Below, piece after piece: positions 2,228 to 4,753 of a DNA stretch of 5,702 nt; positions within the stretch are counted from its first letter, which is position 1, and every line of letters begins with the position of its first letter. The DNA is from Pseudomonadota bacterium. GTDB taxonomy: Bacteria; Pseudomonadota; Alphaproteobacteria; Rhizobiales; Hyphomicrobiaceae. Under the pieces are notes generated by a model. It did no database searches. It saw only the letters and a program-made list of their open reading frames with translations, and was not told the origin of the DNA. Where the stretch lies: positions 1-5,702 of the forward strand of contig JAKALI010000304.1 in assembly GCA_021813195.1 (NCBI GenBank). The letters are read 5' to 3'. The position numbers and the translations under genes are program-made.

Positions 2228-2262
2228 AACATGATATCCCCTTCCTGACACCGAAGCCTCCA
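2228..2262 (+). promoter_or_regulatory. Protospacer-like target of the CRISPR-like RNA, with 5' AAC as PAM
   Basis: Bases 2231-2262 are the best match in the gap to the 32-nt pseudo-spacer at 2427-2458. The first 14 bases are ATGAT-A-TCCCC-T-TC here and ATGAT-T-TCCCC-G-TC in the guide, so the only mismatches up to position 14 are at 6 and 12. In type I-E Cascade every sixth spacer base is flipped out and does not pair. From position 15 on the match is essentially random. The three bases before it, AAC (2228-2230), share their first two with the preferred I-E PAM AAG. The site overlaps the candidate -35 at 2244-2249, so bound Cascade would block the promoter. Seed-only pairing is known to allow Cascade binding without Cas3 cutting. 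The function is inferred; the match is read directly. Confidence 0.65.
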
Positions 2263-2272
2263 TTAACTATGT
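2244..2272 (+). promoter_or_regulatory. Candidate promoter of the CRISPR-like RNA and cas8e-casB-casC
   Basis: CCTGAC at 2244-2249 (consensus CTTGAC, 5 of 6) is separated by 17 bp from CTATGT at 2267-2272 (consensus CTATAT, 5 of 6), the spacing and form of an alphaproteobacterial housekeeping promoter. Transcription would start near 2278-2281, giving a leader of about 220 nt that contains the CRISPR-like element before cas8e. The -35 lies inside the protospacer-like site. TATAAC at 2221-2226 is a competing -10, but it lacks a recognisable -35. Confidence 0.45.
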
Positions 2273-2274
2273 CG

Positions 2275-2299
2275 CATGATGCGGACGATGGAGATCATG
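2275..2299. repeat. Short inverted repeat near the predicted transcription start
   Basis: CATGAT (2275-2280) and ATCATG (2294-2299) form a perfect 6-bp inverted repeat around 13 bases. It could be an operator half-site pair or a small hairpin at the 5' end of the leader. A 6-bp repeat with this spacing may occur by chance, so no function is claimed. Confidence 0.25.
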
Positions 2300-2300
2300 A

Positions 2301-2513
2301 ATGAACTGGCTCTTAACCATCCAAGGCAATCTCCGATCAGGATGGTCAGCAGTCTGGGCGTCCCTCTCGATCTCCGTCGCGCTGCGGGTTGGCCGAGAAC
2401 TCCCTCGACCATTCGAGGATAGACCGATGATTTCCCCGTCGCTCAGGCAGGACCCATCAGATCCCCCGACCACTCGGGGCCATTCTTCTTGGCGGCGCAC
2501 TCATGGCAATTAA
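2301..2513 (+). CDS. Doubtful small ORF between promoter and cas8e (possible CreT-like candidate)
   Basis: An ATG at 2301 follows GGAG (2290-2293) by seven bases, the same spacing seen for casB and casC, and opens a 70-codon frame that runs through the whole CRISPR-like element and ends 11 bases into cas8e. The first 30 residues are fairly hydrophobic (WSAVWASLSISVALRV); the rest is rich in Pro, Arg and Ser, as expected if it is just the element read as protein. A second ATG at 2297 opens a 41-codon frame ending at 2422. In CreTA modules a short toxin gene sits between the Cascade-repressed promoter and the guide RNA, which is exactly this position. Neither frame resembles a protein I know, and the frame may be meaningless leader. 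Confidence 0.2.
   Translation: MNWLLTIQGNLRSGWSAVWASLSISVALRVGRELPRPFEDRPMISPSLRQDPSDPPTTRGHSSWRRTHGN
2398..2426 (+). repeat. Upstream pseudo-repeat with hairpin and 5'-handle
   Basis: The stem is CCTCGA (2403-2408), loop CCAT, TCGAGG (2413-2418), followed by ATAGACCG (2419-2426). The stem occupies repeat positions 6-11 and 16-21, the same as in the E. coli I-E repeat, and 18 of 29 bases match that repeat as I remember it. Cas6e would cut after base 2418 and leave the 8-nt handle, which differs from ATAAACCG at one base. The terminal CCG (2424-2426) is the usual non-PAM that protects an array from self-targeting. Confidence 0.75.
2419..2479 (+). ncRNA. Predicted mature 61-nt crRNA-like regulatory guide (CreR/CreA type)
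   Basis: If Cas6e cuts after each hairpin, the product is an 8-nt handle (AUAGACCG), a 32-nt guide (2427-2458) and a 21-nt 3' part ending in the CCCCGA-CCAC-UCGGGG hairpin. That is 61 nt, the length and layout of an E. coli crRNA. Its seed matches the promoter-proximal site at 2231. The likely role is to send Cascade to its own operon's promoter (CreR-like autorepression) or to a toxin promoter (CreA-like). The RNA is deduced from geometry and the seed match; no transcript is shown by sequence alone. Confidence 0.65.
2459..2487 (+). repeat. Downstream pseudo-repeat, hairpin kept, handle lost
   Basis: CCCCGA (2464-2469), loop CCAC and TCGGGG (2474-2479) form a perfect 6-bp stem. The last eight bases, CCATTCTT, no longer resemble the handle. 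A final repeat needs only the hairpin that makes the 3' end of the guide, so selective loss of the handle is what a single-guide element predicts. The pyrimidine-rich tail after the stem could also act as a weak terminator. Confidence 0.7.
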
Positions 2514-3042
2514 TCTGTTGAAAGATCCTCTGGTCCAGGTCGAATTTCACGATAGTTCCAACGCGCGCTCTCTTCCCGAGGTTTTCGCAACATTGATGGC
2601 CGATCGCGTCGCCTGCTTTCCGGCCCTGCGCGCCCATCAAGAGCCTGCTTGGCATATGTTCCTCGCCCAGCTCGGAGCGATCGCCGCACACCGGGCCGGG
2701 CTGACCTCACCGCCGGACGATGCCGCCACCTGGCAGGACATCCTCGGCCGGCTGACTCGCGGTGCGTTCCCGCACGACGAGCCGTGGTGCCTCGTTGTCG
2801 AAGACTGGTCGAAGCCCGCGTTCCTGCAGCCGCCGGTGCCGGACACGCTCGGGCTCGAAAAGCATGCCGCGACGCCCGACGCCTTGGACATGCTGATCAC
2901 GTCGCGCAATCACGACTTGAAGCAATCTATCGCCTCGGGGGCCGGGATCGACCACTGGCTCTTCTCCCTCGTGAGTTTGCAGACGATGGAGGGCTTTGGT
3001 GGTCGTGGAAACTACGGCATCGCGCGCATGAACGGTGGCTAG
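2503..3042 (+). CDS. casA: Cas8e N-terminal fragment (179 aa)
   Basis: This is what would be made if the TAG terminates. It begins MAINLLKDPL and contains the N-terminal fold and, at residues 164-167, GFGG (2992-3003). By alignment from memory with the E. coli segment GFGGGFKSGLRGG, this is the glycine loop that reads the PAM. The fragment stops 12 residues after that loop, in the middle of the large N-terminal domain, so it is unlikely to fold as a complete unit or to join Cascade alone. It contains only single cysteines and no zinc ribbon. Confidence 0.6.
   Translation: MAINLLKDPLVQVEFHDSSNARSLPEVFATLMADRVACFPALRAHQEPAWHMFLAQLGAIAAHRAGLTSPPDDAATWQDILGRLTRGAFPHDEPWCLVVEDWSKPAFLQPPVPDTLGLEKHAATPDALDMLITSRNHDLKQSIASGAGIDHWLFSLVSLQTMEGFGGRGNYGIARMNGG
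3040..3042 (+). other. In-frame amber stop codon within cas8e
   Basis: The codons are GGT-GGC-TAG-TCG-AGC, giving NGG-stop-SSR. One base change from a Ser (TCG), Gln (CAG), Trp (TGG), Leu (TTG), Tyr, Lys or Glu codon would create it. Nothing nearby suggests programmed readthrough or a frameshift. Confidence 0.9.
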
Positions 3043-3051
3043 TCGAGCCGC

Positions 3052-4131
3052 GTGCTGATGGGGCTGGCCCCAATACCCGCGGCGGGCCCAGACGTTACTC
3101 TCCGCCCTGGTCCACGATTGAAGCGCGATATCACGCAGCTCCTGGCGCGTCGCGAAGGCCTGTTGCGGAGCACGCCCATCCCTTATCCAGCAGATAACGG
3201 TCTGGCGCTGACCTGGACGGTGCCGTGGCGGGATGGCGAGCAATTGTCGCTCGATCGGCTGGACGTCTTGTTCATCGAAGTCTGCCGGCGGGTGCGTCTG
3301 GGTATCGAGGGAGGCGTCGTTGTCGCCGCAATCGGCAATTCCTCGGCTGAGCGGATCAAGGCCAAGGAGCTAAAGGGGTTTCTGGGCGATCCTTGGGCGC
3401 CTGTTCATCGAACCGAGTCCAAGGCGCTGACGATTGGGGACGACGGCAGATTTCACTATAGCCGGGTCGTCGAGCTGCTGTTTTCTGGGGACTGGCAGTC
3501 GCCCGTGATGGCTGAACTGGGCAACAACGAGACCGATGAGAATGCAAACTGGCTCATGGTGCTCGCGGCCATTGCGCGCGGCAACAGCAAGACCGGCGGC
3601 TTCCAATCGCGCGCCCTGCCGCTCAAGGGGCGCGAGGCGCGCGTGATCGGCGCCAGACGCAAGGAATTGCACAAGCTGGCGACGGAGCAGATCAACGAGA
3701 TCAAGACGCTCGATACCGTGCTCCGCAACGCTCTGGCGCTCGCCGTTGCCGGTGGTGTCCAGGAAAAGATCAACAAGGACAGCTACGCCCACGCCAAACC
3801 CTATCGCGACCGCCTCGACGCCGTCGCCGATCGAGATTTCTTTCCGGCGCTATGGGCGCGATTCGCCGCCGAGCAGCACGGCACGCCAGACGATGTCGAG
3901 GCGGCGCGCAGGGCATTCCTGCTGCCCCTCGTCGAGACCGTGAGGTCGCTCCTCGAGGACGGCCTCGCCGACATCCCGTGCGCGTCGATCCGGCGGCCGC
4001 GCGCCGATGCCCGCGCGCGGCGTCGGTTCGAGGCGCTGCTGCGGGGGGAGAAAACCGGCTTCCCTAGCCTGTTCGCCAAGGCTGGCGGGGAGCCGACAGG
4101 CAACGATCTGGAGACGACTGATGCACGCTGA
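3052..4131 (+). CDS. casA: Cas8e C-terminal fragment (up to 359 aa by reinitiation)
   Basis: The sequence after the stop could be translated only by reinitiation at GTG 3052 or ATG 3058, 10 and 16 bases after the TAG; no clear Shine-Dalgarno sequence precedes either. In full-length numbering it holds FIEVCRRVRLG from residue 257 and GDPWAPV at 295-301, both typical of Cse1 in many I-E systems. It ends with a helix-rich tail matching the C-terminal four-helix bundle that contacts Cse2. A split protein that reassembles is possible but has no support beyond the intact frame. Confidence 0.55.
   Translation: MLMGLAPIPAAGPDVTLRPGPRLKRDITQLLARREGLLRSTPIPYPADNGLALTWTVPWRDGEQLSLDRLDVLFIEVCRRVRLGIEGGVVVAAIGNSSAERIKAKELKGFLGDPWAPVHRTESKALTIGDDGRFHYSRVVELLFSGDWQSPVMAELGNNETDENANWLMVLAAIARGNSKTGGFQSRALPLKGREARVIGARRKELHKLATEQINEIKTLDTVLRNALALAVAGGVQEKINKDSYAHAKPYRDRLDAVADRDFFPALWARFAAEQHGTPDDVEAARRAFLLPLVETVRSLLEDGLADIPCASIRRPRADARARRRFEALLRGEKTGFPSLFAKAGGEPTGNDLETTDAR
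4110..4113 (+). promoter_or_regulatory. Ribosome binding site that fixes the casB start
   Basis: GGAG lies seven bases before ATG 4121. The frame is open upstream to 4007, but that stretch is cas8e coding sequence, so this site decides the start. Confidence 0.8.
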
Positions 4132-4753
4132 ACCGCAAGTCGACCGGTCGCCGCTGAACGACACGATCTTCGAGATCGGTCGCACGCTCGCCGGACTTGA
4201 TCCCGGCGCACTGGCCGACTTGCGGTGTATGTCGTCAGCGGGCGACGATGCCGGCGCGCCATACTTCTGGCGACTGGCGGCCAGGCATGATTTCGGCGGC
4301 GAGGAACGACAGAAGTCCTGGGTGCGCATCGTGCAGCTCATGGCGATCCTCACCGACAAGGGATCGCCCGACGGCAAGGCGTCGCCGCACGAGCCGCCGA
4401 CCGAGGCGAACGGCTGGCGCGGCCTCGGCACCGCACTGTGCGACGGCGGCGATCCGGCGTGGGGCCGCGGCGAGACGAAGCCACGCCCGATGCTCTCCGA
4501 GCAGCGCTTTGCGCGCCTTCTCTCAGCCCGGGACGTGATGGGCGCCGAATTGCTGGAGCGGGCCGCGCGCACGCTCGCCGTGAAGAAGCCCACGGGCGCC
4601 GCCTTCAATTGCACCGACCTAGCACTGTTCCTTCTCGATCCAGACAACCCCGCACACGACCGCAAATTGGCCCGCGACTATTACGCCCGGCTCGATCGCA
4701 AACAACGCGAAGACGATCCCACCAATGCCACTACGATCGGAGATACCGAATGA
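4121..4753 (+). CDS. casB: Cse2 (CasB, Cas11e) small subunit of type I-E Cascade
   Basis: Cse2 is present as two copies along the belly of Cascade, where it stabilises the crRNA-target R-loop. The 210-residue product is slightly longer than E. coli Cse2 (about 160). Family features visible are YFWRLAARHDF from residue 48, the helix RFARLLSARD from 129, and the C-terminal LARDYYARL with Tyr187-Tyr188. It is mostly helical with many Arg residues, as expected for a subunit lining nucleic acid. The start overlaps the end of cas8e by 11 bp and the stop overlaps the casC start as ATGA, so the three subunits are translationally coupled. Since casB has its own good ribosome site, it may still be made when cas8e translation ends early, although polarity could reduce it. 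Confidence 0.93.
   Translation: MHAEPQVDRSPLNDTIFEIGRTLAGLDPGALADLRCMSSAGDDAGAPYFWRLAARHDFGGEERQKSWVRIVQLMAILTDKGSPDGKASPHEPPTEANGWRGLGTALCDGGDPAWGRGETKPRPMLSEQRFARLLSARDVMGAELLERAARTLAVKKPTGAAFNCTDLALFLLDPDNPAHDRKLARDYYARLDRKQREDDPTNATTIGDTE
4739..4742 (+). promoter_or_regulatory. Ribosome binding site of casC inside the end of casB
   Basis: GGAG lies seven bases before ATG 4750, the same spacing as at casB, and supports the ATGA-coupled start. Confidence 0.75.

Follow-up and report, generated by a model that had tools for sequence, protein, structure and literature searches.

In type II-A systems the effector, Cas9, uses a natural guide, tracr-L, to repress the operon that encodes it. Cas-regulating RNAs (CreR), in turn, reportedly come from mini-CRISPRs, as Liu et al. 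are said to have described in Cell Host Microbe in 2023 (doi 10.1016/j.chom.2023.08.005). CreR-mediated autorepression has been reported for types I-B, I-E and V-A in the available part of PMC13131331, and in this circuit a crRNA-like RNA guides the repression of its own cas promoter (available parts of PMC12737573, section 3.2, and of PMC13131331). The available text of PMC8501985 and PMC9458426 describes a related arrangement, CreTA, in which degenerate repeats flank a guide that pairs at positions 1-5 and 7-11 with a target adjoining a PAM.

The contig analysed here (the window, i.e. the whole stretch of 5,702 nucleotides, from a member of Hyphomicrobiaceae) is a type I-E cas locus, in which NCBIfam profiles place cas3, a gap of 294 nt, cas8e, cse2 and cas7e in this order (Table 1). 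Its closest cas7e, P0001, belongs to a Hyphomicrobiaceae MAG and is 97% identical. The gap very probably holds a CreR together with its target, by which Cascade would repress its own genes, with a second brake acting through the leader. The guide resembles that of CreR in being crRNA-like and partially complementary to its own cas promoter, as set out in the available parts of PMC13131331 and PMC12737573. It differs in that the CreR of the window is nested in a leader ORF ending at cas8e, a feature that the same parts of these two sources do not mention. No description of such a nested leader ORF was found in the literature searched, which includes the available parts of PMC13131331, PMC12737573, PMC8501985 and PMC9458426 and has the primary CreR paper outside its scope. 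As judged from sequence, the element of the window would be a CreR; its autorepression circuit is already known, and the nested leader ORF looks new. The element is distinct from tracr-L in both effector and RNA, the latter having no repeat-spacer-repeat.

A CreR-like element and its target in the cas3-cas8e gap

A degenerate repeat-spacer-repeat unit spans positions 2398-2487 of the gap and displays the anatomy of a CreR, viz. degenerate repeats outside an array, two 6-bp stems, the handle ATAGACCG on the first repeat and a spacer of 32 nt. The array repeats of the relatives are mostly similar to GGTTCCCCCGCACNCGCGGGGATAGACCC. Pseudo-repeat 1 has many differences from this sequence, yet ATAGACC of the handle is kept, and its stem is still perfect as both sides of it have changed together. 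Folding of the RNA from 2392 to 2490 formed both stems, the fold as a whole being not unusual (z −1.45). The guide is 32 nt long in 17 of 21 loci and 20 nt long in the other four (L031, L033, L052 and L068; by eye also L183), and the 12-nt step would fit a smaller Cascade. A single snoRNA match, returned by the Rfam scan of 2100-2600, was discarded as being at chance level (18.1 bits against a gathering score of 40).

Table 1. Features of the window, with their positions, strand and basis
Feature	Position	Strand	Basis
cas3, 5' end lost at contig edge	1..2208	+	NCBIfam cas3_core TIGR01587, 176.8 bits, above cut-off
PAM-like AAC preceding the target	2228..2230	+	sequence; [AT]A[CT] precedes the target in 32 of 33 pairs (L077: AAA)
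Self target (protospacer); paired part 2231-2244 minus positions 6 and 12	2231..2262	+	seed match to guide
Candidate -35, CTGACA	2245..2250	+	best hexamer pair by simple scoring; absent from stricter scan
Candidate -10, TATGTC, weak	2268..2273	+	simple hexamer scoring
Shine-Dalgarno-like GGAG; spacing 7 nt to leader ORF start, 3 nt to competing ATG 2297	2290..2293	+	sequence
Leader ORF, 70 codons, through CreR, overlapping cas8e start by 11 nt	2301..2513	+	open frame
Pseudo-repeat 1, handle 2419-2426 (ATAGACCG)	2398..2426	+	perfect 6-bp stem CCTCGA/TCGAGG; compared with array repeats of relatives
CreR guide (pseudo-spacer), exactly 32 nt	2427..2458	+	between the two pseudo-repeats
Pseudo-repeat 2, stem-loop 2464-2479, handle lost	2459..2487	+	perfect 6-bp stem CCCCGA/TCGGGG
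cas8e (cse1), internal TAG 3040-3042	2503..4131	+	TIGR02547 on first piece, 49.9 bits, below cut-off of 70.05
cse2 (cas11)	4121..4753	+	TIGR02548, 32.3 bits, above cut-off
cas7e, 3' end lost at contig edge	4750..5702	+	TIGR01869, 253.1 bits

The pattern ATGATNTCCCC has two copies in the window (2231-2241 and 2427-2437) and no others (expected 0.02), and none of 200 shuffles contained two. As the initial annotation had noted, the guide ATGATTTCCCCGTC and the site ATGATATCCCCTTC are identical at positions 1-5, 7-11 and 13-14 and different at 6 and 12, with AAC before the site and CCG before the guide's own copy; the sequence bears out both observations. The guide is thus partly complementary to its own putative cas promoter next to a PAM, as in a CreR, with ten of ten seed positions and AAC. 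The stop of pairing after position 14, read in the initial annotation as binding without cleavage, is likewise found. Pairing of that length is too short for cleavage by Cas3, so Cascade would block the promoter rather than cleave.

The site had further been claimed to cover a candidate -35 at 2244-2249. It does overlap a promoter-like region, but the better hexamer, CTGACA, is shifted by one base from the position given, and the stricter scan reported no plus-strand promoter in 2150-2520. Given this and the weak TATGTC partner, it is the location of the site, more than its consensus, that justifies the label of promoter.

In the window cas8e carries an in-frame TAG at 3040-3042, and relatives have intact copies. 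The codon probably acts as a stop here, since cas3 also terminates with TAG. It is either a genuine change or a sequencing error, and with such a stop the window's own copy of Cascade may be inactive. No NCBIfam model matched the second piece of the gene, which has 375 homologues, the best ones mostly full length. The internal TAG would also suit a functionless self-targeting spacer, left from an old array in a strain with broken cas8e. Such a remnant is most improbable, as the stems and the handle are retained in the window and the element recurs with individually matched seeds in 32 relatives.

Guides and targets among the relatives

The relatives were compared in two sets. Set 1 comprises 93 loci, drawn from genome contigs (the best 80 of 195), genome stretches (9) and plasmids (4). 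In 79 of them the spacing between the cas3 stop and the beginning of the cas8e BLAST hit was readable; this gap is at least 100 nt in 36. Overlap of cas3 and cas8e, or a gap below 100 nt, is seen in 43 of the 79, most of them having little room for a CreR there. Set 2 comprises 26 stretches, of which 10 repeat set 1 and 16 are new; the gap reaches 100 nt or more in 11 of the latter. The cas7e of the compared loci is about two thirds identical or less, the window's closest cas7e relatives (72-97%) being outside the DNA comparison. A first genome scan with the second piece of cas8e contained no relative among 65 stretches, the 100 stretches of viral contigs that matched a pattern likewise contained none, and plasmid and phage DNA gave no near match.

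A pair was counted when the guide following a handle agreed with its own gap in at least 9 of the ten seed positions. Pairs were recorded for 24 of the 36 gapped loci in set 1 and 8 of 11 in set 2, i.e. 32 of 47, and 15 gapped relatives were not counted as paired. Three loci of set 1 that fail the hairpin rule (L015, L026 and L051) were added by hand from their gap sequences. Under the strict rule predicted before set 2 (hairpin, plus strand, target upstream), the 11 gapped loci yielded two candidates, of which L183 matched at 9 of 10 and L188 scored 7 upstream. The predictions for set 2 were therefore borne out in part, and the figure of 8 of 11 comes from a relaxed scan of both sides and both strands that dispensed with the hairpin rule. 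Relaxed-scan matches of L080 (9/10, PAM AAT) and L104 (9/10, PAM AAC, doubtful handle) were left uncounted, as were second matches of L070 (PAM CAT) and L077 (PAM CAA).

The paired loci fall into three layouts. In layout (i), that of the window and 23 relatives (L031 being without a match), the target, on either strand, comes first and the CreR lies downstream in the cas8e leader. Paracoccus kondratievae (L029) and Azospirillum picis (L008) are examples of it. In layout (ii) the CreR directly follows cas3 and the target is downstream (L184, L185, L187, L188 and L189); the handle of these loci is ATGGACC or ATCGACC, and the systems are from the order of Azospirillum picis. In layout (iii) the CreR is opposite in strand to the cas genes (L063, L066, L070, L077 and L112); L070 also has array repeats in its gap. 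Among layout (i) loci the place of the target relative to promoter-like hexamers varies and the hexamer calls are weak, so the target is placed only in the region of the leader and promoter.

In 80 set 1 loci the 1500 nt preceding the first cas3 hit were scanned; they gave 80 candidates and one seed match, at a PAM of CCA, and hence no CreR with a proper PAM. Downstream handle-like words, mostly inside cas genes, gave 142 candidates with 20 seed matches of 9 or more; among the 13 listed of these 20, none has AAC, AAT or TAC as PAM.

The seeds mostly differ between relatives, each fitting its own gap, and those of L028, L051, L064 and L033 resemble variants of a common ancestral seed, each again fitting its own site. 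L028 and L029 share one guide and L184 and L185 have nearly the same one, so these loci are not independent. With an [AT]A[CT] PAM required, 32 of the 33 pairs (the window and 32 relatives, all picked for having a match) score 9-10 of 10 on their own gaps, the exception being L077 with AAA. As the pairs were chosen for matching, the real test is the swap control, in which guides were tried on the gaps of other loci, leaving out the L028/L029 and L184/L185 pairs: none of 1052 trials reached 9 of 10. In a first, smaller test that applied no PAM rule, own scores were 9 or 10 in 18 of 19 loci. The best score among 342 swaps was 9, obtained in 6 cases, two of these being swaps between L028 and L029; of 5700 shuffled guides, 97 scored at least 9 and a single one scored 10.

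These results bear directly on the initial annotation, which had put a chance match at about 6 in 10,000 while conceding that the test was made after the fact. The relatives and the swap control answer this worry, and given the relatives a chance origin of the match in the window appears very unlikely. The co-variation that it had proposed as a check is found, guide and target changing together in 32 relatives. Seeds drifting independently, named there as the opposing outcome, are represented by one of the 24 window-type loci, L031, which has the full CreR anatomy and no seed match (best 8 of 10).

Cascade flips out every sixth base of the paired stretch, and the mismatches of the window had been claimed to sit at such places. 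Over the 33 pairs this holds, as evident from position 6, matching in 3 (L051, L070 and L112; one-sided p 0.02 against the 25% of unrelated bases), and position 12, matching in 6 (p 0.25 by the same comparison). Positions 13, 14 and 15, which like 6 and 12 played no part in picking the pairs, match in 27, 26 and 23 of 33, jointly 76 of 99, and differ sharply from positions 6 and 12 (Fisher p 4e-16); at position 18 the match falls back to 8 of 33. Release of every sixth base, with the rest kept to about position 15, is the pattern expected if selection acts through Cascade. Plain repeats or RNA-RNA pairing were considered as well, and the release of 6 and 12 with 13-15 kept argues against them. 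The Cascade-mediated autorepression offered in the initial annotation as the simplest reading is therefore supported at the level of sequence by the co-varying guides and targets and by the Cascade-type unpaired positions.

G is also enriched at the unpaired positions 6 and 12, where it accounts for 35 of 66 bases as compared with 81 of 330 at paired seed positions (p 1e-5); the enrichment is mostly in the layout of the window (28 of 44, and 7 of 22 in the other layouts). In that layout both guide positions also fall on the third base of a leader ORF codon.

The reading frame through the leader

In layout (i) the frame concerned has a codon boundary just before the third handle base (GAT AGN CCN in most) and is open through both pseudo-repeats. 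The leader ORF is present in 23 of 24 such loci (20 of 21 in set 1 and 3 of 3 in set 2). The remaining one, L109, has a CreR and a target but lacks a leader ORF in that frame; another frame there stays open until 18 nt short of the cas8e hit. The ORF starts downstream of the target in all matched ORF-bearing loci except L033. In 21 of 23 loci its stop is placed −1 to +11 nt from the closest in-frame start codon of cas8e, the exceptions being L051 (−9) and L054 (−24, with an uncertain cas8e start), and a 4-nt stop/start overlap, ATGA or GTGA, is seen in 7 of the 23. In layout (ii) a frame through the handle reaches cas8e in none of the five loci. The window also has a competing frame, whose ATGs lie at 2276, 2279, 2288 and 2297 and which is closed by the handle's TAG, short of cas8e.

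The resemblance to CreTA may be considered at this point. The window shares with it the degenerate repeats, the pairing at 1-5 and 7-11 and the adjoining PAM, and a guide of the same pairing rule acts upstream of creT according to the available text of PMC8501985; the leader ORF could then be a CRISPR-repressed toxin, CreT, and the guide its antitoxin, CreA. The CreT of H. hispanica is a mini-ORF with a strong Shine-Dalgarno sequence (same part of PMC8501985), and the leader ORF here likewise comes after the target. In contrast to a short separate unit, however, the leader ORF crosses the guide and ends at the start of cas8e, the target precedes cas8e, and no toxin-like mini-ORF with tandem rare codons was found. 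A CreR generally has no toxin gene coupled to it. Tandem AGA/AGG/ATA codons are absent near the start of all 23 leaders, the two tandems seen being at codon indices 31 (L033) and 63 (L183), and the leader peptides are poorly conserved overall. A toxin-antitoxin module is accordingly a very unlikely explanation of the gap.

Whether the CreR is embedded in a translated leader was assessed from several features of the frame. In the 23 loci with an ORF, the leader frame is open on both sides by construction; of the two alternative frames, one is open in 5 loci and the other in none. The probability of openness by chance is about 0.01-0.27 for a single ORF, and the product over 20 loci is about 1e-21 under a base-composition model, L028 and L029 being near copies and the composition having been drawn from the ORFs themselves. 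The handle sequence ATAG, which would place a TAG stop in frame, is absent from 21 of 21 second pseudo-repeats; its loss is only consistent with translation, as a CreR needs no handle there. A Shine-Dalgarno score of at least 5 of 6 is found at 9 of 20 leader starts, 4% of random places and 3 of 20 cas8e starts, a comparison biased by the choice of set 1 leader starts partly on that score. Alignment of seven pairs showed the fewest changes at second codon positions (70 of 187, compared with 101 of 194 and 108 of 187 at the other two; p 3e-4), the signal coming from three of the pairs, two of which share L026, with none in the other four (p 0.42). No homologue of the window's 70-aa leader ORF was found, nor any candidate with three shared words. 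Spacing in threes was dropped as a proof of coding, as guide lengths of 32 and 20 nt share the same phase anyway. Taken together, these features suggest that the leader is likely translated across the group.

A simpler role of the frame has also to be weighed, in which the ORF only keeps the leader translated (e.g. against Rho) or is open by chance, and CreR processing has no effect on cas8e. The wide variation of the peptides, the scarcity of stops in GC-rich DNA, the single-ORF probabilities, the choice of starts by script partly on Shine-Dalgarno score and the dispensable handle of pseudo-repeat 2, the loss of which demands no translation, all agree with it. The product over the 20 loci and the ORF stop, which in 21 of 23 falls at the closest start of cas8e, speak against chance, not against the version with Rho. 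This simpler role is considered rather unlikely.

Proposed regulation of the operon

For the gap read as a CreR with its target, the following course may be proposed. The degenerate repeat-spacer-repeat retains both stems, the 5' handle and the 32-nt guide, as seen in the sequence. Cas6e would cut 3' of each stem to yield a crRNA-like RNA of about 61 nt (2419-2479), which would be loaded by Cascade; with a 20-nt guide this RNA would measure 49 nt. Cascade would then seed on AAC and the matching stretch 2231-2244 and block the promoter of cas8e-cse2-cas7. The CreR lies inside an open frame, the leader ORF, whose stop overlaps the start of cas8e and which is presumed to be translated. As the CreR is part of the leader of the same mRNA, production of the guide would consume Cascade mRNA and separate cas8e from the coupled leader, so that the cut at the CreR would act as a second brake added to repression at the promoter. 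Competition by array crRNAs for Cascade, or loss of Cascade, would lift the repression, as in the CreR circuit of PMC12737573 (section 3.2) and PMC13131331.

It is a possible, still tentative, extension of this scheme that the guide is carved from a translated leader at the cost of one mRNA per CreR, with Cas6e uncoupling cas8e, and that two brakes thus reside in one stretch of 61 nt. If this is true, three demands fall on the stretch at once, namely guide folding, a match to the DNA and translation.

The present analysis contributes about thirty candidates for RNA-guided autorepression of cas genes. It indicates that evolution alone reveals which positions of the guide are read, 6 and 12 being released and 13-15 largely kept. 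Should the nested leader prove functional, a single RNA would connect the supply of guide, the supply of Cascade mRNA and translation, and a few mutations in the leader could probe the autoregulation of Cascade directly.
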